A stretch of DNA of 64,000 bases from contig JAFGBM010000009.1 of the NCBI GenBank assembly GCA_016933155.1, positions 1 to 64,000 on the forward strand, read 5' to 3'. The first letter of the stretch is position 1. The number at the start of each line of letters is the position of its first letter. Below, one piece after another: positions 19,851 through 61,181 of the stretch. The notes under the pieces were generated by a model, which worked only from the letters and a program-made list of their open reading frames with translations, had not been told where the DNA came from and searched no databases. The position numbers were made by a program, and so were the translations under genes. This DNA comes from Demequinaceae bacterium (GTDB lineage Bacteria > Actinomycetota > Actinomycetes > Actinomycetales > Demequinaceae).

Positions 19851-20582
19851 CTACAGATCTCCCCCCGCATCCGCCAAGACCTCGGCCACTTCGGGGAATC
19901 CGTTCTGGGCCGCCCACCCACGGGCCGTTGCCCCGAAGAGGTCGCGGTGGCTGACGTCCGCCCCCCTCTCGATGAGGTAGATCGTGGCCTCGAGGGCCCC
20001 TCCACGCGCAGCATGGGACAACGCCGTGGAATCGAAGGCGGCCAAGACCTCGATGTCGACGCCGGCATCGAGGAGGACCTCGAGCGCCTCGACATTGTTC
20101 GAGCGCGCGGCGAAGTGGAGGGAGCAGCCCCCGAAGGCGTCGGGGTTGACGGCCAGGGGATCGGACCCGGCATCGAGGAGCGCCCGGACGATGTCAGCCT
20201 GCGAATACTGCGCCGCGAGGTCGAGCGCCGTATGCCCCGAACCGGAACGCGCCTCGACGGAGGCGCCGCGGTCGAGTAGGGCCAGGACGATGCCGAGTTG
20301 ATCGTTGATGGCGGCTATATGAAGGGGCGTGGACTGGTTCCCCAGGTCCGCATCGACGGCCAGCCCGGCGTCGAGGATGGCATCGACCAACGCCTCGTCT
20401 CCCGCGACGATGGCGTCCCGCATCTGCGTCTCGAGTGAGATATCGAAGTCGACGGCGACCGAGACAGACGGTGATTCCGAGGCGTCCGCCCCCACGTCAC
20501 TGGGTGTGCAGCCAGCAGCCAGGGCAAGGAGAAGTGTCAGGGCGAAACCTTGCCGTCTCCTCCGCGTGACGCGCGCGCTCAC
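19851..20582 (-). CDS. Ankyrin-repeat lipoprotein (second of pair)
   Basis: 243 residues. A basic stretch and hydrophobic core lead to the lipobox LAAGC (Cys about residue 25). After a short Ser/Pro linker come about six ankyrin repeats, with typical TPLHIAAIND, TALDLAAQYS, SLHFAARSNN, TALSHAARGG and ARGWAAQNG helices. Ankyrin arrays bind other proteins; the lipid anchor puts this one outside the membrane. GTG 20582 overlaps the TGA of the upstream ankyrin gene (GTGA), so the two are coupled. Partner unknown. Confidence 0.88.
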   Translation of the reverse strand: MSARVTRRRRQGFALTLLLALAAGCTPSDVGADASESPSVSVAVDFDISLETQMRDAIVAGDEALVDAILDAGLAVDADLGNQSTPLHIAAINDQLGIVLALLDRGASVEARSGSGHTALDLAAQYSQADIVRALLDAGSDPLAVNPDAFGGCSLHFAARSNNVEALEVLLDAGVDIEVLAAFDSTALSHAARGGALEATIYLIERGADVSHRDLFGATARGWAAQNGFPEVAEVLADAGGDL

Positions 20583-21289
20583 CGTTCGCCCCCGGCCGCG
20601 GCGATCGCCTCGGCGACTTCGGGAAAGCCTTCGTATTCGGCCCATCCGAGCGCGGTCGAATTGTGGTGGTCACGGAGATTGACCCCAATTCCATGGGTGA
20701 GCAGGAACTCGACCGCCTCGAGTTGTCCGTTGTGCGCGGCATAGTGAAGCGCCGTCCAGTCGACGGCGTCGACGGCGTTGATGTCCGCTCCCTCATCCAG
20801 GAGCATCTCGAGCGCGGCAACGTTCCCGTGGTGTGCCGCGTAGTGCCAGGCCGCGGCTTGCAAGGCGACCGAGTTCGCGGCGGACACGTCCGCCCCAGCA
20901 TCCAGACACTCCTGGATGACCGACGCCTCCGCGAAGGAGGAGGCGACCATCAGGGGGGTACGCCCCTGGACGTCTCGGGTCTCGATCGACGCTCCCGCGT
21001 CGATCAGGATCGATACGATCTCGGGCTGGTTCACCTGAGCCGCGAAGTGGAGAGGAGGCAGACCGACCGGCAGATCGGTGTCGAGATCGGTGAAATCGGC
21101 GACGACCACCTGCACACGATCGACGTCGCCCGCGCGGATGGCCTCCTCTAGTTGAACACCGAGCGGAAGGCTCAGATCGATGTCGGTTGGGCCAGTCGCC
21201 GGGTTGACATCATCCGAAGCCACCTCGGCGCAACCCGCGACGAGGGCGATGCCGATGACGAGAATGGCGCTAGTTGTACGCAATGACAT
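20579..21289 (-). CDS. Ankyrin-repeat lipoprotein (first of pair)
   Basis: 236 residues. Lipobox LVAGC (Cys about 20), then about six ankyrin repeats: LPPLHFAAQVN, TPLMVASSFA, ALQAAAWHYAAHHGN, TALHYAAHNGQ and TALGWAEYEGFPEVAEAIAAAGG. The last repeat is closely similar to that of the downstream gene (WAAQNGFPEVAEVLADAGG), so the pair arose by duplication. AAGGAGA lies seven bases before the ATG. Function unknown; some bacterial ankyrin proteins shield or tether enzymes, but no enzyme partner is adjacent. Confidence 0.88.
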   Translation of the reverse strand: MSLRTTSAILVIGIALVAGCAEVASDDVNPATGPTDIDLSLPLGVQLEEAIRAGDVDRVQVVVADFTDLDTDLPVGLPPLHFAAQVNQPEIVSILIDAGASIETRDVQGRTPLMVASSFAEASVIQECLDAGADVSAANSVALQAAAWHYAAHHGNVAALEMLLDEGADINAVDAVDWTALHYAAHNGQLEAVEFLLTHGIGVNLRDHHNSTALGWAEYEGFPEVAEAIAAAGGER

Positions 21290-21947: not shown

Positions 21948-23330
21948 TCAGGCGTGACCCCGCTTCCGATCGACCCCGAAGAGGAGTCGGGCCTCTGCGA
22001 CCAGGGTGATCGAGCCCGTCACGACCACCCCTCCCGTGAGGTCGCTCCCGCCTTCGGCGAGGGCGACCGCTCGGTCGATGGCGTCGGGCAGGTTCGGCTC
22101 GACCTCGACCCGGTCGTCCCCGAAGACCTGCCGGGCGACGAGGGCAAGGTCGATGGCAGGCAGCGCCCTCGTGGAGAGCGACGCCGTTATGACGACCTTG
22201 TCGAGGACCGGCTCCAGGGCGGAAAGGATGCCCTCGGGGTCCTTGTCGTCGAGGATCCCGACCACTCCGACGATGGTTTCGAGGGCAAAAGATTCTTCGA
22301 GGGCATCGGCAAGGGCGGAGGCGCCGTGAGGGTTGTGGGCGGCATCCACGATCACAAGGGGAGAAGTGCGCACCGTCTCCAGGCGCCCGGGGGACGTCGT
22401 CTCCGCGAACCCCTGCTCGACGAGTTCGGCCCCCAGGGGGAAGCCATCGCCCAACAGGGCCTCCACCGCCGCCAGGGCGAGGAGGGCGTTGTGGGCCTGG
22501 TACTCGCCCAAGAGCGGGATGAACACGCCCTCGTAGGAAGCCGCTCGGGTCCGGAGGTTCGCCACCTGGCCGCCCACCGCCGGGGTCCTGTCCTCGATTT
22601 CGATGTCCTCGCCCTCCCACACCGCGTCCGCATCGTGCGCCTTGATCGCGTCCCTGATCACGGGCCGGACGACGTCAGGCTGCTCGGCCACGACGACCCT
22701 CGCGTCGTCCTTGATGATGCCAGCCTTCTCGCGAGCGATCCCCGCGAGGTCGGTCCCCAGGTAGCGGGCGTGATCGAGGGCGACGGGGGCGACAACGGCG
22801 ACCTCTGCCTCGACGACGTTGGTCGCGTCCCATCGACCGCCGAGTCCGACCTCGATCACGGCGACGTCGACGGGGGCGTCGGCAAAGGCTGCGAATCCCA
22901 GCACGGTCAGGACCTCGAAGAAACTCAGGCGCGGGCCGCCCCGGTCGGCCGAATGTGCGTCGGCCAGGTGGACGATGGGGGCAACCTCCATCCACAGCCG
23001 GATGAAGTCGACCTGTGAGATCGGTCTGCCGTCGATGCGGATCCTCTCCCGCACGGTGGTGAGATGGGGCGAGGTGAAGAGGCCGGTGCGGAGACCATGG
23101 GCACGGAGCAAGGACTCGACCATGCGAGCGGTCGAGGTCTTCCCGTTGGTGCCGGCGATATGGACGACCCGGAACGCCCGCTCGGGATGGCCGAGGAGGT
23201 CGACGATCTCGATCATCCTGTCGAGCGTGGGCTCGAAGTCGTTCTCCGGATTGCGGGAGAGGATGTGCGCATAGATCTCGCGCTCGGCCTCTTCCGCGCT
23301 GATTCCAGTCCCGTTGTCGTCGACGGTCAC
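21948..23330 (-). CDS. folC: Dihydrofolate/folylpolyglutamate synthase
   Basis: 460 residues. It adds Glu to dihydropteroate and folates. Mur-ligase-type ATP site HIAGTNGKTSTARMVESLL (near 57), then FTSPHLTTVRERI, EVGLGGRWDATNVV and, in the C-terminal domain, VDAAHNPHGASAL. The start is GTG 23330, six bases after TAGCAT, so probably leaderless. Typical neighbours (valS upstream, ndk downstream) are displaced: valS is 24 kb away. Confidence 0.94.
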   Translation of the reverse strand: MTVDDNGTGISAEEAEREIYAHILSRNPENDFEPTLDRMIEIVDLLGHPERAFRVVHIAGTNGKTSTARMVESLLRAHGLRTGLFTSPHLTTVRERIRIDGRPISQVDFIRLWMEVAPIVHLADAHSADRGGPRLSFFEVLTVLGFAAFADAPVDVAVIEVGLGGRWDATNVVEAEVAVVAPVALDHARYLGTDLAGIAREKAGIIKDDARVVVAEQPDVVRPVIRDAIKAHDADAVWEGEDIEIEDRTPAVGGQVANLRTRAASYEGVFIPLLGEYQAHNALLALAAVEALLGDGFPLGAELVEQGFAETTSPGRLETVRTSPLVIVDAAHNPHGASALADALEESFALETIVGVVGILDDKDPEGILSALEPVLDKVVITASLSTRALPAIDLALVARQVFGDDRVEVEPNLPDAIDRAVALAEGGSDLTGGVVVTGSITLVAEARLLFGVDRKRGHA

Positions 23331-24236: not shown

Positions 24237-25352
24237 ATGGGAATCAAGGACCGCATCGTCGGGATCGACGCCGTCCGGGGCATCGCCATTCTCGGGATGT
24301 TCGCCGCGCACGTCCGCCCCCGCACCCCCGCGGGTGAGAGCGAGTGGGGCTGGACCTGGGTCTTCGACGGAAGATCCGCCGCGACCTTCGCCGTCCTCGT
24401 CGGGGTGTCCATGACCCTCCTCGCGCGAGGCCATTCCCCCGCCCATTCTCACGCGCGTATCGCGACCCGAGCCGTCCTCCTCATCGTGCTCGGACTGTCG
24501 CTCCAGCAGCTCCAGACCCCGATCGTCTGCATCCTCGTCAACACCGGTCTCATGATGCTCGTCGGGATGTGGGCGCTCCGGACCGGCACGCGGGTGTTGG
24601 TGGGAATGGCGGCGGCCTTCGCCGTCGTCGGCCCATTTGTCCGAGTGTGGCTCGTGAAGGTGATGTCCCACGAGGAACTGATCTGTCCCGAAGGCTTCGC
24701 CTGCCACAAGGATGAGGGAGGCTGGTTCGGATACGAGTGGATGGGACCCCGGCCCTATCCGACGATCGTCAGCGCCCTGTGGGGCTTCTACCCGCTCGTG
24801 GTCTGGATGGCGTACGTATTCGTCGGTATCCTCATAGGCCGGATGGCGCTCCGATCGTTCAGAGCCTTGGCAGTGTTGGGGGCTTTCGGGGTGGCGCTCG
24901 CCGTCGCCGGGTATGGGGGATCGGCACTCGTCGGCGGCGAGCAGCGCGGTTTCCTCGACGCCGAGTCGGGCTGGTGGAGGTCGGCCTCCCCCCACACGTA
25001 TACGCCGTTCGAAGTAACGGGCAACATGGGAGTGACCCTCGTCCTAATCGCCCTGTGCTGCGCGATCGCGGTCGCGGCTCGGTGGGTCCTCGTCCCGCTC
25101 GCCGCCGTCGGCGCCATGGCGCTGACGGCATACGCCGGACACATCGTCGCGGTGTGGTGGCTCCGGAACGAGCCGGTGTTCTCCGCCCATGTCGCGACCC
25201 TTGTCTGGTTCTGGGTGGTCGCCATCGTCGTCTGCACTGCCTGGAAGTACGCGCTGGGTCGGGGCCCGCTGGAGTTTCTGCTCCACTGGACGTCCATGCG
25301 GGCCGCCGGACCCGACGGCGAGCGCACCGCACCATCGACGACTACGACGTAG
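24237..25352 (+). CDS. Acyltransferase-like membrane protein (DUF1624/DUF418 type)
   Basis: 371 residues with about nine or ten hydrophobic segments. The start RIVGIDAVRGIAILGMFAAH is the family signature of heparan-alpha-glucosaminide acetyltransferase-like and YeiB-like proteins; the end KYALGRGPLEFLLHWTS is the usual C-terminal DUF418 motif. Such proteins are thought to move acyl groups across the membrane, but bacterial substrates are unknown. It faces the heliorhodopsin gene tail to tail, overlapping it by 11 bases. Confidence 0.85.
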   Translation: MGIKDRIVGIDAVRGIAILGMFAAHVRPRTPAGESEWGWTWVFDGRSAATFAVLVGVSMTLLARGHSPAHSHARIATRAVLLIVLGLSLQQLQTPIVCILVNTGLMMLVGMWALRTGTRVLVGMAAAFAVVGPFVRVWLVKVMSHEELICPEGFACHKDEGGWFGYEWMGPRPYPTIVSALWGFYPLVVWMAYVFVGILIGRMALRSFRALAVLGAFGVALAVAGYGGSALVGGEQRGFLDAESGWWRSASPHTYTPFEVTGNMGVTLVLIALCCAIAVAARWVLVPLAAVGAMALTAYAGHIVAVWWLRNEPVFSAHVATLVWFWVVAIVVCTAWKYALGRGPLEFLLHWTSMRAAGPDGERTAPSTTTT

Positions 25353-26130
25353 GCGCGAGCGTCCCGGCGAACACCTGCCAGGCGAGGAGGGACTTCGCCA
25401 CGAGGCTGAGGAGAACGTAGGTCGACTCCCCGTACACGTAGTCCTTCCACTTGCCGATCTTCTTGTACTGGAGGTACATGACGATGGCGAAGCAGTTGAA
25501 GAAGACGAACAGCGAGAAGAAGATCCCGTAGACGAATGCGGGTGGCTCGGCCGCAATACCGGGCGACACAAGGTAGATCACGATGGCGATCCAGGGAATG
25601 GCCCCCGCAATGCACCCGAACCAGTACGACAGCAGGCCGACCCCCTTGCCGGGAGTCTCATACTTCTCTTGGAGCAGGCCGAACAGGATCATCGAGGCGT
25701 TGACACCGGCGAGCGCGAGGAGCGCCGCGATGTCCGCGATGCCGACGAGCATGGCGATAAGGATGATCATGATCGAGGAGGAGACGGAGTACTCGACCCA
25801 CCGGGCGTAGTTGCGTCCCCGTTCGAGGCCCGCGATGTAGCGGGGGAAGTACTGAGGCGACGCGATGACGAAGTGCGCGATGGCCGAAACGAAGAGGAAC
25901 GCGGCGACGCCGTAGGCGTATCTGAAGTCGAAGAGCTCGTGGACGGCTGGCGGCTCGAGGCCGGGGGCGTTCGTCATGAACGTCGAGACCACGGGCAGGG
26001 TGAACTCATTCGCGAGGACGAGGATCGCGACACCCTGGGCCAGGTGCAGGAGCCCCATCAGGACGTTATAGCGGCGCAGCTTGCGGGCGGTGCCGACGGC
26101 GATTGCCCCGGCTACCTTGGTTGGTGCCAC
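25342..26130 (-). CDS. Heliorhodopsin
   Basis: 262 residues, seven hydrophobic segments. The last segment has YVLLSLVAKSLLAWQVF, with Lys 246 as the retinal Schiff-base lysine; RWVEYSVSSSIMI in the third segment supplies the counterion Glu 113. His 29 and His 86 fall where heliorhodopsin 48C12 has His 23 and His 80. The N-terminus faces the cytoplasm in this family, opposite to other rhodopsins, and no ion pumping is usual. AAGGAGG precedes the GTG start by five bases. No carotenoid cleavage enzyme, photolyase or glutamine synthetase is nearby. Function here is unknown; light sensing or protein partnering is inference. Confidence 0.95.
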   Translation of the reverse strand: MAPTKVAGAIAVGTARKLRRYNVLMGLLHLAQGVAILVLANEFTLPVVSTFMTNAPGLEPPAVHELFDFRYAYGVAAFLFVSAIAHFVIASPQYFPRYIAGLERGRNYARWVEYSVSSSIMIILIAMLVGIADIAALLALAGVNASMILFGLLQEKYETPGKGVGLLSYWFGCIAGAIPWIAIVIYLVSPGIAAEPPAFVYGIFFSLFVFFNCFAIVMYLQYKKIGKWKDYVYGESTYVLLSLVAKSLLAWQVFAGTLAPTS

Positions 26131-26151
26131 GGTTTCCTCCTTAAGTGAACG

Positions 26152-26306: not shown

Positions 26307-26765
26307 ATGGTTCAGCGATTCCGAAGACGTAGACGCGACCGCAAGGCCAGCCTCCTGGGTGCGCTCACGCTCGCGATATGGGCGACGGTCGGGGTAGCGG
26401 CCGCATCCCAGTTGAGTGTGAATAGCACAGATGTCTCGGAGTTCTTCGATAGCCCCTGCTCGACCAGCACCCTTTCTGTTCGGGTTTCTCCGGCGGGATT
26501 CGGCGCTTCGCGGTCGGCCGTCTCGATATCCAGTTTCCCTGCCGCATGCTATGGGAGCACGGTCCAAGTCGGGGTGTCCAATTCCGCGGGGACGCTTCTC
26601 GCGAGTGGCTCCGCCACCTGTAGCGCCGCAACCTGCACGGTCTCAATCGGGACGTACAACGCGCCCTCCGTGACGGACTCGCACGTCCTCGTCGATACCT
26701 GGGGAATACCCTCAACGTGGGACACTACCTGTCGCTACATCATCTTCTTCTGGTACTGCGCCTGA
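26307..26765 (+). CDS. Small secreted protein, unknown function
   Basis: 152 residues from ATG 26307, with GAGG eight bases upstream; the longer open frame to 26145 covers the promoter of the divergent heliorhodopsin. A very basic start (RFRRRRRDRK) precedes a hydrophobic segment (SLLGALTLAIWATVGVAAAS), a signal peptide or anchor. The rest is Ser/Thr/Ala-rich beta-type sequence with six Cys, which could form three disulfides. TACAGT (26246-26251) may be its -10. No family recognised. Confidence 0.65.
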   Translation: MVQRFRRRRRDRKASLLGALTLAIWATVGVAAASQLSVNSTDVSEFFDSPCSTSTLSVRVSPAGFGASRSAVSISSFPAACYGSTVQVGVSNSAGTLLASGSATCSAATCTVSIGTYNAPSVTDSHVLVDTWGIPSTWDTTCRYIIFFWYCA

Positions 26766-26946: not shown

Positions 26947-27035
26947 TGATGGTTGCGGACGGCAGTGATGGTTGCGGACGGCAGTGATGGTTGCGGACGG
27001 CAGTGATGGTTGCGGACGGCAGTGATGGTTGCGGA
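26941..27035 (+). repeat. Five perfect tandem copies of a 19-bp unit
   Basis: CGGCAGTGATGGTTGCGGA is repeated without a mismatch at 26941, 26960, 26979, 26998 and 27017. Each copy contains TGCGGACGGCAG across the junctions, the core of the dispersed motif. Nineteen bases shifts the reading frame each time, so this is not a coding repeat. It sits 25 bases upstream of the -10 for the DUF2510 gene. Confidence 0.95.
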
Positions 27036-27059
27036 CGGCGGGGAAGGGCGGATGCTCGC

Positions 27060-27072
27060 TATCGTTATTGGG
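27060..27072 (+). promoter_or_regulatory. -10 box TATCGT before leaderless GTG
   Basis: TATCGT (27060-27065) precedes GTG 27073 by seven bases. The tandem array ends 24 bases upstream, in the -35 and upstream-element zone. Confidence 0.45.
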
Positions 27073-27669
27073 GTGAGCTCGAGTGAGGAAGATGCGGTTG
27101 TGACAGAGCCTGAGACGGGACAGCAACCGGCACAGCCGCCCGGGTGGTACCCGGATCCCTACAATCCCCTGAACCAACGGTACTGGGACGGATCGGCGTG
27201 GACTGCGGCCTCCATTCCGAACCGGCCAAGCTCGTCATCGTCAAGCGGTGAGGCCCGTCATCGGAGACGGACGACAACGCTCGTGATCCTTGCCGTCGTC
27301 GGCGTCCTCCTGGCCGTGCTGTCGATCGTGTCTCTCCAGATGGTGGCGGCACCCATCCTCCGGGACGAAAACGCCAACGCGGCCGACACCCAGGCGAAAT
27401 CGGACGTCTCCACACTCGGGAGGGACCTCGCCGTCTATTTCGTCAACCACGCGGGGGCAGTTCCCGAGATCACCGTCGTCGACGGCGAGTACCGCATCGC
27501 CGGCGCCTCCCCTCCATACGACATCGAGACCATCGGGCCGGGGGTCGAGTTCGGCGGCGTGACCGGCACCAACTCGACCAACTGGTGCGTCTGGGTCACC
27601 CACCCCGACGGGAAGGAGAAGGACTTCCGCTACTCGGCCCTCATCGGGCTCGAACAGGGCCGCTGCTGA
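27073..27669 (+). CDS. DUF2510 single-pass membrane protein
   Basis: 198 residues from GTG 27073 (leaderless); GTG 27100 is an alternative, with GAGGAAG nine bases upstream. The N-terminal DUF2510 motif reads PGWYPDP...RYWDGSAWT. After a Ser-rich linker and RHRRR comes one transmembrane segment (about residues 74-96). The outside part of about 100 residues contains one Cys in NWCVWVTHPDGK near the end and resembles the extracellular part of pilin-like proteins, though without a cleavage site. Function unknown; such proteins are common in actinobacteria. Confidence 0.8.
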   Translation: MSSSEEDAVVTEPETGQQPAQPPGWYPDPYNPLNQRYWDGSAWTAASIPNRPSSSSSSGEARHRRRTTTLVILAVVGVLLAVLSIVSLQMVAAPILRDENANAADTQAKSDVSTLGRDLAVYFVNHAGAVPEITVVDGEYRIAGASPPYDIETIGPGVEFGGVTGTNSTNWCVWVTHPDGKEKDFRYSALIGLEQGRC

Positions 27670-27694: not shown

Positions 27695-30600
27695 CTAGCG
27701 CTTGACGACCGTGGCCGTCAGTTCCGGGCCAGCGGCTGCGTCGATGAGCACCTCGCCCGAGGCCGGGTCGTAGGCCAGCGTCTCCCGTGAGATGAGATCC
27801 CGATGCTCCTCGACTGCGGCCAACCGCTCGGCGGGCACCGTCAGCGCGAGCCTAATCCGGTCGCTCACGTTCAGCCCGGCGTTCCGGCGCTCCTCCTGGA
27901 CGGCCCGAATGACGTCGCGGGCGAAGCCCTCCGCCTCGAGCTCGGGGGTGAGCCGGGTGTCGAGCACGACGTATCCACCCGTCGACAGCATCCCGCAAAC
28001 GTACCGATCCCCGGCGTCCTCGAGGCCGCCGACCTGTTGGGTAAGTTCGTACTCCCCCGGCTCAAGCAGCACCCCACCGACGACGAGACCCTGGGCTGTC
28101 TGCTCCCACTCCCCCGCCTTGCCTGCGGCGATGACCGCCTGTATGGCCTTGCCCAGCCGCGGCCCCGCGATCCGCGCGTTCACGGTCAGGGACTCGGTGA
28201 TCCCGAACTGGGGGATGTCGAAGAGCTGCTCGGCCGATGCGAGGTGGCTGTCCTTGGTCGTCCATGAGAGTTGGAGGTTCTTGACATTGAGTTCGGTGCG
28301 CACGATGTCGGCGTAGGGCAAGAGCGCCTCGGGGTCGAGGGACGCGAGCCGCATGGCGTGGATCGGCTGGCGCACCCGGATCTGCCGAGCCTTGCGGAGG
28401 CCGTGCGCCACCGAGCACGCCTCCCGTACCTCGTCCATGACAGCGCCGAGCGATTCATCCCGCCATGCATCGGGCACCGTCGGCCAATCCGTCAGGTGCA
28501 CGGAGCGATCTCCCGTCAGCCCCCTCCATACTTCTTCCGTGATGAGCGGCGCGAGCGGCGCCGCGACTCTGCACAGGGTCTCGAGGACGGTGTAGAGGGT
28601 ATTGAACGCGGCCTCTTCCTCGTTCCAGAAGCGGTCGCGTTGGGTCCGGACGTACCAGTTCGTGAGCAGGTCGAGGAAGGCCTCGACGGCGTGGCAGGCG
28701 TCGGGCACGTCGAACGTGTCCATGAGGGACGTGACCTCGTCGACGAGCGAAGCTGTCCTGGCGAGCACATACCGGTCCATCTCGGCGAGGCCCTTGACCT
28801 CGGAATCCTCCACCCGTCGCGCGAGATACCCCGCGCCGCCCGGACCTCCGACCGCCCCTGCGTACATCGAGAAGAAGTAGTACGTCGACCAGAGGGGCAG
28901 GAGGACTCCGCGCACCGATTCGCGGATCCCTTCCTCCGTGACGATGAGGTTGCCCCCGCGCAGGATGGGCGACGACATGAGGAACCACCGCATGGCGTCG
29001 GCGCCGTCGCGGTCGAAGACCTCGTTGACGTCCGGGTAGTTCCGAAGCGACTTGGACATCTTGCGACCGTCGGAACCGAGGACGATGCCGTGGCAGACGC
29101 AGTTCTTGAAGGCGGGCTTGTCGAAGATCGCGGTGGCCAGTACGTGGAGGGTGTAGAACCAGCCCCGCACCTGCCCGATGTATTCGACGATGAAATCCCC
29201 GGGGTAGTGGTCCTCGAACCACTCCTGGCTCTCCGCCGGGTAGTGCACCTGGGCGAAGGGCATCGAACCCGAGTCGAACCACACGTCGAGGACGTCGGGG
29301 ATACGACGCATGGTCGATGTGCCCGTGGGGTCGTCGGGGTTCGGCCGGGTGAGTTCGTCGATGTAGGGGCGGTGAAGATCCGTGACGGGCACGCTGAAGT
29401 CGCGCTCCAGGTCCGCGATGGACCCGTACACGTCGATGCGCGGGTGGGCGGGGTCGTCGCTCACCCACACGGGGATGGGGGTGCCGAAGTATCGGTTGCG
29501 GCTGATGGACCAGTCCCGGGCGCCCTCGAGCCACAGGCCGAACTGGCCGTCCTTGAGATGCTCGGGCACCCAAGTGATCTCCTGGTTGAGTTCGACCATG
29601 CGGTCGCGGAGGTCCGTCACCCGGATGAACCAGGAGCCCATCGCCCGGTAGATGAGGGGGTTGCGGCAACGCCAGCAATGGGGATACGGGTGCTCGTAGG
29701 TTTCGTGGCGGACGACGACGCCCGCCTCCTTGAGCGCGACGATGACCTTCGGATTCGCGTCGAAAACCAGTTCACCCTCCCAATCGGGCACCTCAGAGGT
29801 GAATCGACCCCGCGAGTCGAGGGGCACGACGGTCTCGATCCCGGCGGCCTTGCAGGCCTCAAGGTCGTCCTCACCGAATCCGGGGGCGAGGTGGACGATG
29901 CCGGTGCCGTCCTCGGTGGTGACGAAGTCGGCGGTGAGGACGCGGAACGCGTCGTCGTGGTCGGCGAAGAACGGGAAGAGCGGCGCGTACCGGAAACCCT
30001 CGAAATGCGAACCCGGAGCGGAGGCCACCACGTGGTAGCCCTCGCCGAATTCGCGCGAGTAGGCCTCGACGCGTCCCTCTGCGAGGACCAGCCTCTGCCC
30101 GGCAAAGGCGGAATCGGGGCCGGGCTCGACCACCGCGTAGGAGATCTCCGGCCCCATCGCGACGGCGAGGTTCGACGGCAAGGTCCAGGGCGTCGTCGTC
30201 CAGATCAGGATCGAGACGGGCTTTCCCTCCTTGACGAGCGGCTCCCCCGCATCGTCCAGCAACCGGAGGGCAACCGTGATGGCCGGGTCCTGCCGCGACT
30301 GGTAGACGTCGTCGTCCATACGGAGCTCGTGATTGCTGAGCGGCGTCTCGTCCTTCCAGCAGTAGGGGAGCACGCGGTAGCCCTCGTAGGCGAGCCCCTT
30401 GTCGTAGAGTTGCTTGAAGCCCCAGATGACGGACTCCATATACCCGAGGTCAAGGGTCTTGTAGTCGTTCTCGAAGTCCACCCATCGGGCCTGGCGCGTA
30501 ACGTACTCCTCCCACTCCTTCGTGTACTTGAGCACCGACTCCCGGCAGGCATCATTGAAGGCCCCGATGCCCATCGCCTCGATCTCGGACTTGTCCGTGA

Positions 30601-30937
30601 TCCCGAGCACCCGCTCGGCCTCGAGCTCGGCGGGCAGCCCGTGGGTGTCCCACCCGAATCGTCGTTCCACCCTCTTGCCCCGCATCGTCTGATACCGGGG
30701 CACGACGTCCTTGGCGTATCCGGTCAGGAGGTGGCCATAGTGCGGGAGACCGTTGGCGAAGGGAGGCCCGTCATAGAAGACGAACTCGTCGGCCGCTGTC
30801 TCGGCCGGACGGTTGTCGATCGACGCCTGGAAGGTGCCGTCGTCCTTCCAATAGGCCAGCACGTCCCGTTCGATCGACGGGAAACGGGGGGAGGCGACGA
30901 CGTCTCCCTCGCGGTGGAGGGGGTACTTCTGGGGCAT
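27695..30937 (-). CDS. ileS: Isoleucyl-tRNA synthetase, type 2
   Basis: 1080 residues. Class I motifs: [13 protein letters not shown] (HIGH equivalent, about residue 64) and [12 protein letters not shown]. The sequence [12 protein letters not shown] and [20 protein letters not shown] are hallmarks of the eukaryote-like IleS2 form, which in other bacteria resists mupirocin. Editing domain lies between ([12 protein letters not shown]). AAGGA precedes the ATG by seven bases, and this ribosome site lies at the end of the T-box leader. Confidence 0.97.
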
Positions 30938-32073: not shown

Positions 32074-33285
32074 ATGAAGCGAACCTTGTCTGGTCCGATT
32101 GCCACCGGAATCCTCCTCTTCTCCCTCTCCCTCGCCGCTTGCTCGGTCGAGCCCACCCCGAGCCCGTCTCCCTCGCCTTCGCCGTCGGACTCCCCCAGTC
32201 CCTCGGCGAACCCTTCGCCCAGCCCCTCCCCCAGCCCCTCGGTCGTCGAACCGTCCGGTGCCGCCACCGCCTCCGTCGTCGATTCCTTGACCATTCAGGA
32301 CGGGCTCTTCCTTCCCTGGGATATCGCCTTCGCTCCGGATGGCACGATGCTTGTGACCATCAGCGACTCGGGGCAGATCCTTCGATACAAGGACGGCGAA
32401 TACGACTATCTTGTCGGGGAAGGGGCCGACTGGCTCAGAGGCCAAACCAATCCCGCCGGCGAGGGCGGCTTGCTCGGGATCGCCATCCTCCCCTCCAATC
32501 CGAACGTCCTGTACGTCTATGTGACCGGACCAAGCGACAACTCGGTCGTCAGAATGCAGCGCTTCGGTCAATACCTAGACGAACCGACGGTCATCTTGAG
32601 CGGCATCCCCCGGGCCAACTACCACGACGGGGGGCGGATCCGCTTCGGCCCCGATGGCTACCTCTATATCGCGACAGGCGATGCGGGGATCAAACCGTAC
32701 TCCCAGGACCTCACCTCCCTGGCAGGCAAGATCCTCCGCGTCGTCGCCGACAACTCCGACGAGGACGGCCAAGCCGCACCGGGAAATCCGTTCGGGACAC
32801 GTGTCTGGTCGTACGGCCACCGAAACGTCCAAGGACTCGGCTGGACCTCCGACGGCCGGATGTATGCGAGTGAACTGGGCTGGAACACCCAGGACGAACT
32901 CAACCTCATCGAGCCCGGGAACAACTATGGCTGGCCGAACAAAGAGGGGATGGTGGGGGCGCCTGCTGGAACGGCAAAGGGTCAGACGGTCGGCGGATAC
33001 ACCTACCCGGTCGCGACATGGGCAACCTCCGAAGCCTCTCCGTCCGGTATCGGGATCACGGACGAGGGCATATACATTGGGGCCCTCCGTGGTCAACGGA
33101 TCTGGCGGGTCCCGCTCACTGCGGACGGGATCGGGACCCCCCATGTGCTCCTGAGCGACCTCGGCCGGATCCGGCTCGTCACCTCCGGCCCCAATGGGAA
33201 CCTCTACGCCCTCACGAGCAACTCCTCAGGGGCCAACGGCGCCGTCGACAAGATCGTCAGAATAGTGGTGATCGAGAACGACTAG
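32074..33285 (+). CDS. PQQ-type sugar dehydrogenase-like lipoprotein
   Basis: 403 residues. Lipobox LAAC (Cys about 23), then a Ser/Pro spacer of about 35 residues. The beta-propeller of the glucose/sorbosone dehydrogenase family follows: LPWDIAFAPDGTMLVT, GGLLGIAILPS, NYHDGGRIRFGPDGYLYIATGD (with the family His), SYGHRNVQGLGW, and ELNLIEPGNNYGWP. Known members oxidise aldoses with PQQ, but many actinobacterial ones have unknown substrates. AAGGG is four bases before the ATG; TAGCAT at about 32043 may be the -10. Confidence 0.88.
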   Translation: MKRTLSGPIATGILLFSLSLAACSVEPTPSPSPSPSPSDSPSPSANPSPSPSPSPSVVEPSGAATASVVDSLTIQDGLFLPWDIAFAPDGTMLVTISDSGQILRYKDGEYDYLVGEGADWLRGQTNPAGEGGLLGIAILPSNPNVLYVYVTGPSDNSVVRMQRFGQYLDEPTVILSGIPRANYHDGGRIRFGPDGYLYIATGDAGIKPYSQDLTSLAGKILRVVADNSDEDGQAAPGNPFGTRVWSYGHRNVQGLGWTSDGRMYASELGWNTQDELNLIEPGNNYGWPNKEGMVGAPAGTAKGQTVGGYTYPVATWATSEASPSGIGITDEGIYIGALRGQRIWRVPLTADGIGTPHVLLSDLGRIRLVTSGPNGNLYALTSNSSGANGAVDKIVRIVVIEND

Positions 33286-57727: not shown

Positions 57728-58648
57728 GTGCCCGAGATCGAAACCGAGAACCTCACCAAGACGTTCGGGCCCGTCACCGCCCTCTCCAACCTCACCGTCG
57801 AGATGCCCGACGGAATCGTCGGCCTGGTCGGCGCCAACGGAGCGGGGAAGTCCACGCTGATCAAGATCCTGCTCGGCCTCCTACCCCCGACCTCTGGAAA
57901 GGCTCGCGTCCTCGGATTCGACTGCCGCACTGATGGGCCAAGCATCCGGGAATTCGTCGGCTACTCACCCGAGAGCGAGTGCCTCCCCCGAGACGTCACC
58001 GCCACGGAGTTCATGGTCCACATGGGCCGGATGTCCGGCCTACCGACGCATGCGGCCCGCGAACGCACGGCCGACACCCTGAGGCATGTCGGTCTGTACG
58101 AGGAGCGGTACCGTCCGATCGGCACCTACTCGACCGGTATGAAGCAGCGGGTCAAGCTCGCCCAGTCCCTGCTGCACGACCCGCGGCTCATCTTCCTCGA
58201 CGAGCCGACGAACGGCCTCGACCCCGCTGGCCGCGATGACATCCTCGACCTCATCTCCCGCATCGGCCACGAGTTCGGCATCTCGATCATCGTCACCTCC
58301 CACCTGTTGGGGGAACTCGAGCGCATCGCCGACCACGTCATCCTCATCGAGGAGGGCGTCCTTCAGCGGTCGACCTCCACATCCGAGGCCACCCGGCTGG
58401 CGGGATCCGTCATCGTCGAGGTCACCGAGCGCGCCAATGAGATGGTGAAGAAGCTGAAGAAGGCGAAGGCGGAGGTGGTGGTGTCAGAGGCACCCGAAAC
58501 CTTCGCGGTCGAGGTCACCGACGAGGCGGTCCTCGACGCGATCGTCGCCACAGCCGCCAATCTCGGGGTCGGGCTCGTGCGCATGCAGCAGCGGCGCCAC
58601 CGCCTCACGGAGATGTTCGACGACCGGAAGGGGGGCGAGGATGGCTAA
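57728..58648 (+). CDS. ABC transporter ATP-binding protein (ABC-2 type, first)
   Basis: 306 residues. Walker A GANGAGKST (about 34-42), signature YSTGMKQRVKLAQ, Walker B LIFLDEPTNGLDPAG, His switch TSHLLGELE. The STGMKQR form is typical of exporters of the ABC-2/NatA kind. The C-terminal 90 residues are an accessory domain. First of four genes in ATPase-permease-ATPase-permease order, overlapping the next gene by 8 bases. Substrate unknown. Confidence 0.93.
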   Translation: MPEIETENLTKTFGPVTALSNLTVEMPDGIVGLVGANGAGKSTLIKILLGLLPPTSGKARVLGFDCRTDGPSIREFVGYSPESECLPRDVTATEFMVHMGRMSGLPTHAARERTADTLRHVGLYEERYRPIGTYSTGMKQRVKLAQSLLHDPRLIFLDEPTNGLDPAGRDDILDLISRIGHEFGISIIVTSHLLGELERIADHVILIEEGVLQRSTSTSEATRLAGSVIVEVTERANEMVKKLKKAKAEVVVSEAPETFAVEVTDEAVLDAIVATAANLGVGLVRMQQRRHRLTEMFDDRKGGEDG

Positions 58649-59531
58649 GGAGAACGGCGGTGTTATCCATGACATCGGCTTCCGCCACTACGACGGGCCC
58701 CGCATGGGCCGCCCATTCGTCGTCCGCTCCCTCGTCGCCGACACCCTCCGCGGAACCTTCGGAATAGGCAGGCCCGGACGCGAGAAGGTCACCCCGTGGA
58801 TCCTCTTCGGGATCATGATGTTCCCGGCCTTCGTCATGCTCATCATCCTCATCGTGGGCCAACAGGACGAACTCCCGACGCAGTACAACCAGTACCTCAT
58901 CGATCTGCAATTCGTCTCTGCTCTGTTCGTCGCGAGCCGAGCGCCCTATGCCCTCTCCCGCGACCTCCGCGACGGCGTCATGCCGCTCTACCTCTCGCGC
59001 CCCATGACCACCCGGGACTACGTCGCCGCCCGCTTCCTCGGCCTCACTTCGGGTACAACGATCTTCCTGGTGGCGCCGATCACTCTGCTCCTCATCGGTG
59101 CCCTGCTGGCTGAGCTTCCGGCCGGAGAGCAACTCGTCCACTTCCTCCTTGCCGTCGTCCTCGCCGTCATCCTCGCCATCCTCATCTCGGCCATCGGTCT
59201 CGCGATTGCCTGCTTCACCGAAAGACGAGGGATCGCCATGGCGGGCATCGTCGCCGCCCTCCTCCTGACCAATGGACTCTCGGGTGTCTTCGGCCAAATC
59301 CTTGACTCCAGGGGTGAAACCGACCTCGCCTCCTACATGGTGGCCTTCAACCCCTTCGGGCTCGTCGACGGCATCGGAGCGTCCCTCATGGGCCTGACGT
59401 CGGGCAACGACCCGAGACCTCCGACCACGATGATCGCCGGGGTCATCCTCGTCGCCATCTACCTTGGGATCCTGGCGGTTTGCGCACTGCTTCTCGGGCG
59501 CCGGTACCGGAAGGTAGCGGCCGGGGCATGA
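58641..59531 (+). CDS. ABC-2 type permease (first)
   Basis: 296 residues with six hydrophobic segments. Cytoplasmic N-terminus DIGFRHYDGPRMGR; then an outside loop with QDELPTQYNQY and the cytoplasmic SRDLRDGVMPLYLSRPMTTRDYVAARF, a common ABC-2 coupling segment. Overlaps the upstream ATPase by 8 bases and the next ATPase start (ATGA) by 4, so all are coupled. Likely an exporter half-channel; substrate unknown. Confidence 0.88.
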   Translation: MAKENGGVIHDIGFRHYDGPRMGRPFVVRSLVADTLRGTFGIGRPGREKVTPWILFGIMMFPAFVMLIILIVGQQDELPTQYNQYLIDLQFVSALFVASRAPYALSRDLRDGVMPLYLSRPMTTRDYVAARFLGLTSGTTIFLVAPITLLLIGALLAELPAGEQLVHFLLAVVLAVILAILISAIGLAIACFTERRGIAMAGIVAALLLTNGLSGVFGQILDSRGETDLASYMVAFNPFGLVDGIGASLMGLTSGNDPRPPTTMIAGVILVAIYLGILAVCALLLGRRYRKVAAGA

Positions 59532-60439
59532 GCGCGATCACCTTGACCAATGTCTCCCGATGGTTCGGCAACGTCGTAGCCGCCAACGACGTGACGATGG
59601 AGATCGGGCCCGGCATCACCGGCCTCCTGGGCCCGAACGGCGCTGGAAAGACGACCCTCATCTCGATGATGGGAGGGTTCCTCGCCCCATCGGCGGGAAC
59701 CGTCCTTCTCGACGGGGTCCCCACCTGGCGCAACCCCGAGATTTACCGAACCGTCGGCATCGTCCCCGAGACTGAGGCCGCGTACGACATGATGACGGGT
59801 TGGCAGTTCGTCCTCGCGAACGCCCTCCTCCACGAGCTCGAATACCCCGAGACGGCGGCGACGGCCGCGATCGAGGCGGTCGACATGGCGACGGCCCAGG
59901 GCCGGGCCATCGGCACCTACTCCAAGGGGATGAAGCAGCGGATCAAGATGGCGACCTCGCTCGTCCACCAGCCGAGCGTTCTCCTGCTCGACGAGCCGTT
60001 TAGCGGGATGGACCCCCGGCAGCGCCTCCACCTCATGGACCTGCTTCGCTCCCTCGCCGCCGACGGCAAGACAATCCTGTTCTCCAGCCACATCCTGGAG
60101 GAGGTCGAAGTCGTTGCGGACACCATCGAGGTCATGGTCGCGGGTCGGCACGCGGCGTCCGGGGACTTCCGCAAGATCCGCCGGCTCATGACCGAACGCC
60201 CCCACCGCTACACGGTCCGCTCCTCCGACAACCGCGCCCTGGCCGCGGCCATCATCGCGGAGGGATCGGCGAACGCGGTGAGCCTGGCCCCCGACCGGGT
60301 CGACGTCGAGGCGAGCGACTTCGGCTCCTTCGTCCACGCCCTCCCCCGCCTCGCCCACAAGGCCAAGATCCGTCTGCTCGATGTCACCCCCGCAGACGAG
60401 TCATTGGAAAGCGTGTTCTCCTACCTGGTGGCGCGATGA
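59528..60439 (+). CDS. ABC transporter ATP-binding protein (ABC-2 type, second)
   Basis: 303 residues from ATG 59528 (ATGA overlap with the permease stop). Walker A GPNGAGKTT, signature YSKGMKQRIKMAT, Walker B VLLLDEPFSGMDPRQR, His switch SSHILEEVE. The signature Gly is kept but Ser-Gly-Gly is replaced by Ser-Lys-Gly, as in many ABC-2 ATPases. Paired with the following permease. Confidence 0.93.
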   Translation: MSAITLTNVSRWFGNVVAANDVTMEIGPGITGLLGPNGAGKTTLISMMGGFLAPSAGTVLLDGVPTWRNPEIYRTVGIVPETEAAYDMMTGWQFVLANALLHELEYPETAATAAIEAVDMATAQGRAIGTYSKGMKQRIKMATSLVHQPSVLLLDEPFSGMDPRQRLHLMDLLRSLAADGKTILFSSHILEEVEVVADTIEVMVAGRHAASGDFRKIRRLMTERPHRYTVRSSDNRALAAAIIAEGSANAVSLAPDRVDVEASDFGSFVHALPRLAHKAKIRLLDVTPADESLESVFSYLVAR

Positions 60440-60452
60440 GGACGGAGGCGGC

Positions 60453-61181
60453 ATGAACCTGGTCATCATGAGGCTCACCGCGCGGAGCCTGCTGGGGCGC
60501 CGCCGCGTCGTCTTGCTCAGCCTGCTGCCCGGCGTTCTCTTACTCGTGGCCGCCGCCACCCGGTGGGGGTCGGATGCGGACCCATGGGCCACCGCGCACA
60601 TGCTCCACAACTTCGCGATGAGCACCATCCTGCCCCTTGTCTGCCTCATCATCGGCACGGGGGCCATCGGGCCGGAGATTGAGGACGGCTCGATCGTCTA
60701 CCTTCTCGCCAAGCCCATCAGCCGAACGACCATCGCCCTGTCCAAACTCGTCGTCGCCGTGACGACGGCCCTCGCCATGGGGGCGGTGCCGATCGCTCTC
60801 GCCGGTGCGGTCTCGGGCGACTGGCATTGGAAGCTCACCCTGGCCTACGGAGTCGCCTCGGCCCTCGGCGCGGTCGCCTACACGACCGTGTTCTTCACCC
60901 TTGCGATCCTCACCCGCAACGCCATCATCTCCGGACTCATCTACGCGCTGCTCTGGGAGGGGGTAATCGGCGGATATGTGCCCGGCGTCAGGGTCCTCAG
61001 CATCCGGCAATGGATCCTCGCTCCCGCGGAAGAAATCGCGGCGCCTCAGGCGTCCACATGGGGGGTCTCCTCCCAAGTCGGGCTCAGTACAGGCCTCCTC
61101 CTCCTCGTCGTCACGACGATCCTGGCCGCCGCATTTGCCGCGCGGCGCCTGCAGACCATCTCGGTGCGCGGCAGCGAGTAG
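60453..61181 (+). CDS. ABC-2 type permease (second)
   Basis: 242 residues, about six hydrophobic segments. The cytoplasmic EDGSIVYLLAKPISRTTIALSKLV is the same type of segment as in the first permease (DGVMPLYLSRPMTTRDYV), so both pairs form one family. GGAGG is four bases before ATG 60453. The operon probably yields one heteromeric exporter or two related ones. A GC-rich hairpin follows. Confidence 0.88.
   Translation: MNLVIMRLTARSLLGRRRVVLLSLLPGVLLLVAAATRWGSDADPWATAHMLHNFAMSTILPLVCLIIGTGAIGPEIEDGSIVYLLAKPISRTTIALSKLVVAVTTALAMGAVPIALAGAVSGDWHWKLTLAYGVASALGAVAYTTVFFTLAILTRNAIISGLIYALLWEGVIGGYVPGVRVLSIRQWILAPAEEIAAPQASTWGVSSQVGLSTGLLLLVVTTILAAAFAARRLQTISVRGSE

Follow-up and report, generated by a model that had tools for sequence, protein, structure and literature searches.

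A new heliorhodopsin from a Demequinaceae actinobacterium and its gene neighbourhood

Within a contig stretch of 64,000 nucleotides from a Demequinaceae bacterium (hereafter, the window), we identified a new member of a known protein family, heliorhodopsin, a light-sensing membrane protein that occurs in many bacteria; it is ordinary in kind and leaves the known function of the family unchanged. Its chief oddity is that the genome seems unable to produce retinal, the vitamin-A-like pigment which it requires. The product is very probably a functional heliorhodopsin that would bind retinal, would not pump ions and would signal to a partner encoded elsewhere; its most likely role is that of a light sensor acting through protein contact with this unlinked partner. 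The gene adds heliorhodopsin to a small-genome genus of the Demequinaceae, a family in which two distinct lineages of heliorhodopsin have been gained or retained.

Identity, fold and retinal site

Reading the minus strand, we found an intact frame from a GTG start at 26130 to a stop at 25342, exactly the boundaries given by the original prediction, which had not specified the strand; the start is preceded by a perfect ribosome-binding site (Table 1). A scan for sigma-70-like promoters near the gene, of a kind that is unreliable for high-G+C actinobacteria, returned none. The protein scored 338.5 bits against Pfam PF18761 (E 2.5e-101; cut-off 26.7 bits) and 335.5 bits against the NCBI heliorhodopsin equivalog NF038020 (cut-off 100 bits), with the full domain covered in both cases, which bears out the initial assignment to this family. 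The type-1 rhodopsin model PF01036 gave 18.5 bits, below its cut-off of 24.6, and the top sequence relatives in the PDB were 9ljj and the 48C12 entry 6su3 (E ~1e-81). Chance is excluded as a source of the heliorhodopsin identity.

Table 1 Heliorhodopsin gene and surrounding features in the window
Feature	Position	Strand	Basis
folC, left boundary of the conserved block	21948..23330	-	Family model; locus comparison
HGSNAT_cat/DUF418-type membrane acyltransferase, convergent neighbour; 3' ends overlap heliorhodopsin by 11 bp	24237..25352	+	Pfam
Heliorhodopsin gene, 262 aa	25342..26130	-	PF18761, NF038020, PDB 48C12, residue alignment, structure model
Ribosome-binding site AAGGAGG, a few bases 5' of the GTG start	26135..26143	-	Sequence read
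Small protein, likely signal peptide, divergent neighbour	26310..26765	+	No Pfam match
DUF2510 pilin-like protein	27010..27669	+	Pfam; locus comparison
ileS, right boundary of the conserved block	27695..30937	-	Locus comparison

Residue alignment placed H29, H86, E113 and K246 at the positions of H23, H80, E107 and K241 of 48C12, as originally proposed. The accompanying claim that all key retinal-site residues are present was fully supported, and the other residues of the Schiff-base network that we examined are kept as well: in 48C12 numbering, H23, S76, H80, N101, R104, W105, E107, Y108, S112, N138, E149, Q216, Y226, E230, S237, K241 and W246 are all the same. The retinal lysine lies in the SxxxK motif of helix 7 (S242-L-V-A-K246), and E113 is the counterion. 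The AlphaFold model (pLDDT 89.6) consists of seven helices with an ECL1 beta-hairpin (strands 44-51 and 62-70), and the top ten Foldseek matches were all heliorhodopsins, with 6su3 and 6su4 aligning at TM 0.91-0.92 and an rmsd of 1.5-1.9 Å. The protein thus shares with 48C12 (PDB 6su3, 6su4, 6uh3) the fold (TM ~0.92), the Schiff-base lysine, the Glu counterion, both histidines, the hydrogen-bond network, the ECL1 beta-hairpin and the Phe/Tyr residues at dimer contact positions, whereas overall identity is ~54%, the clade is different, Gln213 of 48C12 is replaced by Met218, and ICL3 contains KKIGKWKD rather than KGKGKWSN.

Lysines and arginines number 15 on the N-terminal-side loops versus 1 on the opposite side, a charge pattern that fits the predicted inverted topology with the N-terminus inside. 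ICL3 as a whole reads QYKKIGKWKD and carries a Lys223/Lys224/Lys227 patch. By homology, all-trans retinal would be bound on Lys246 and would undergo a slow heliorhodopsin photocycle that moves no ions. The slow light-driven change may be passed to the positively charged cytoplasmic face, formed by the N-terminus, loops 2 and 6 and the lysine patch, and from there to a partner, soluble or in the membrane, whose gene lies elsewhere in the genome.

Methionine at the Gln213 position occurs in 13 of 89 heliorhodopsin sequences, all in the window protein's part of the tree; the two other tuning positions, Gln148 and Ala240, are unchanged. Because the same Gln-to-Met change produces a 5 nm blue shift in the Ornithinimicrobium heliorhodopsin (PMC7807009), a maximum slightly below 551 nm is expected, and we infer green absorption at roughly 540-551 nm. 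Absorbance near 550 nm, as first suggested, is roughly right, although the methionine points slightly lower.

Phylogenetic placement and spread

The genome (1.885 Mb, 99.8% complete) carries one heliorhodopsin. Both genomes of the genus that we searched, this one and that of a sister species, hold a single intact copy, and the two copies are 83% identical, which suggests selection for retention. Across the family, heliorhodopsin was present in 11 of the 47 Demequinaceae genomes searched. Hundreds of relatives were found in named genomes, and most of the best 80 belong to freshwater actinobacteria, Acidimicrobiia and Chloroflexota.

Maximum-likelihood analysis of the 89 sequences placed the window protein in a clade (100/98) with those of the sister species and of a third genome, G034; this clade was joined to two Acidimicrobiia proteins (97/87) and nested among others from Acidimicrobiia and Dehalococcoidia. 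The placement that had been proposed as a check on the assignment thus lies inside the heliorhodopsin tree, with Acidimicrobiia and Chloroflexota. The heliorhodopsins of the Acidimicrobiia and Dehalococcoidia metagenome-assembled genomes (L029, L054, L033, L036 and others) share this clade with the window protein at 61-67% identity, and most have methionine at the colour-tuning position as it does, whereas their gene neighbourhoods are different. Eight Demequina-type proteins (L015-L022) belong to the same bacterial family and the same protein family, yet they are only 54-59% identical to the window protein, have glutamine at the tuning site, in some cases adjoin an ABC transporter operon, and form a separate clade (100/100) close to 48C12, in the same region of the tree. 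Since the two clades are separate in the tree, the Demequinaceae hold two heliorhodopsin lineages, for which transfer between lineages is the likeliest candidate cause. Seven entries (L037, L038, L040, L056, L057, L081 and L097) are titled Bifidobacterium breve, and their heliorhodopsins are of the freshwater-actinobacterial type; these labels look wrong.

Retinal supply

Phytoene synthase was matched in 46 of the 47 Demequinaceae genomes, the window's own genome being the sole exception; here, no match was found in the 99.8%-complete assembly, in which a small gap could hide a crt cluster. The match in the sister species is partial and reaches a contig end. A targeted search of the genome found no RPE65-type oxygenase, and Blh was absent from all 47 Demequinaceae genomes, the window's included, with a model that works, as shown by its matches in 10 of 34 other heliorhodopsin-bearing genomes. 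No type-1 rhodopsin was found elsewhere in the genome by a search run without a positive control, which is weaker evidence. A second rhodopsin and an own route of retinal synthesis were set aside, neither having turned up in these targeted searches.

The lack of any match to synthesis genes makes other organisms the probable source of the retinal, and actinobacteria that depend on outside retinal have been described (PMC12422013). We tentatively entertain a more specific scenario, possible but not the expected one, wherein the lineage lost carotenoid synthesis together with any retinal route of its own and keeps a heliorhodopsin that works wholly on scavenged retinal or partly as an apoprotein. 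If retinal is scavenged only, the protein would signal not just light but also that retinal producers are nearby. With phytoene synthase apparently lost and heliorhodopsin kept, the genome offers a clear-cut setting in which to test retinal scavenging.

The missing phytoene synthase, set against its presence in nearly the whole family, could also indicate a relic, that is, a gene that is intact but rarely or never works now that carotenoid and retinal synthesis are lost. This is very improbable, given the open frame, the retention of all functional residues, the strong ribosome-binding site and the intact copy in the sister species; moreover, rhodopsin-bearing retinal auxotrophs are well documented (PMC12422013, PMC9296517). 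We favour a functional, signalling heliorhodopsin, against which it still counts that neither a linked partner nor a retinal route was found; for want of the latter, the protein might be active only now and then or serve as an apoprotein.

Gene neighbourhood and candidate partners

The nearest genes on the same strand lie 1.2 kb downstream and 1.6 kb upstream of the heliorhodopsin gene, with opposite-strand genes between, and on this layout the gene is predicted to be monocistronic, standing alone. It falls outside the operon-linked groups of PMC11109279, in which the partner is adjacent on the same strand, as its adjacent genes are on the opposite one. Only 38.6% of the 448 heliorhodopsins surveyed in that study are co-operonic, and a lone gene is therefore the usual heliorhodopsin state. 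In our set, home-made gene calls put a same-strand gene within 100 bp of 39 of the 89 heliorhodopsins, a share near the published one.

The original prediction had suggested that this copy may have a different partner and had proposed a survey of synteny; the suggestion found no support. Comparison of 15 Demequinaceae genomes revealed no conserved partner-like neighbour: the ileS-folC-ndk block is kept in 14 of them with an interval devoid of heliorhodopsin, the exception (L118) having different downstream genes. Heliorhodopsin occupies the folC-ileS interval only in the window's genus; in the sister species it lies ~0.2 kb downstream of ileS, and the two species differ in how it is ordered with respect to the secreted-type and DUF2510 genes. 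Since relatives keep the block without heliorhodopsin and the gene is found there in just one sister species, no neighbour is conserved on heliorhodopsin's account. A conserved neighbour as partner was accordingly rejected, the ndk-folC-ileS block being the same in relatives that lack heliorhodopsin at this place.

It is highly improbable that a dedicated partner is nonetheless one of the genes next to it, namely the convergent acyltransferase, the divergent secreted protein or the DUF2510 pilin-like protein. Physical adjacency speaks for this, as does the recurrence of two of the three in the folC-ileS interval of the sister species, which holds a DUF2510 gene and a homologue of the secreted protein at 42% identity. 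However, all three genes are encoded on the opposite strand, the sister locus lacks the acyltransferase gene, and DUF2510 homologues occupy the interval in relatives without heliorhodopsin there (e.g. L106, L115, L116, L119 and L120). Furthermore, G034 carries its heliorhodopsin, a member of the same lineage, at another site, flanked by a GGDEF gene and a gene likely to encode thymidine kinase.

A partner encoded at a distance, as we prefer, could be of a type already known. Published partners for which charged cytoplasmic residues are implicated comprise glutamine synthetase (PMC9529153), photolyase (PMC9769723) and an ABC transporter (PMC11109279). In this narrower form, which we regard as rather unlikely, the heliorhodopsin would act in trans on, for example, a photolyase or glutamine synthetase. 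It would be consistent with the ICL3 lysine patch, since AbHeR needs ICL3 lysines to bind glutamine synthetase (PMC9529153), with the photolyase binding shown for TfHeR (PMC9769723), and with a photolyase/cryptochrome-type gene on another contig (C3) of the genome. Gene linkage is lacking, however, and the lysine patch is common among heliorhodopsins without a glutamine synthetase neighbour, for which reason we discarded it as a signature of such linkage. The partner of TfHeR, moreover, is a class 2 CPD photolyase, whereas the gene on C3 is of the PF03441 FAD-binding type.

Glucose/sorbosone dehydrogenase is a published class of heliorhodopsin co-transcript (PMC8612252); for the one at 32074-33285 we claim no link, as it is 5.9 kb distant, on the other strand and separated from heliorhodopsin by ileS. 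Between ndk and folC (19851-21289, minus strand), two lipoprotein-like ankyrin-repeat genes stand side by side; the relatives that we compared showed none at this place.

GGDEF genes near heliorhodopsin have been reported before as a less frequent association (PMC8612252). In G034 (L014:8920-10996), the heliorhodopsin gene is followed 89 bp downstream on the same strand by one for a membrane GGDEF protein, a possible light-to-c-di-GMP pair. At L015, three related genes stand in tandem ~3 kb from heliorhodopsin, one of them confirmed as GGDEF by Pfam. Finally, four genes for ABC transporter ATPases and membrane proteins form an operon at 57728-61181 (plus strand), 31.6 kb from heliorhodopsin in the window; its homologues adjoin heliorhodopsin or lie within a few kb of it in four other Demequinaceae genomes (L015, L017, L019 and L021).
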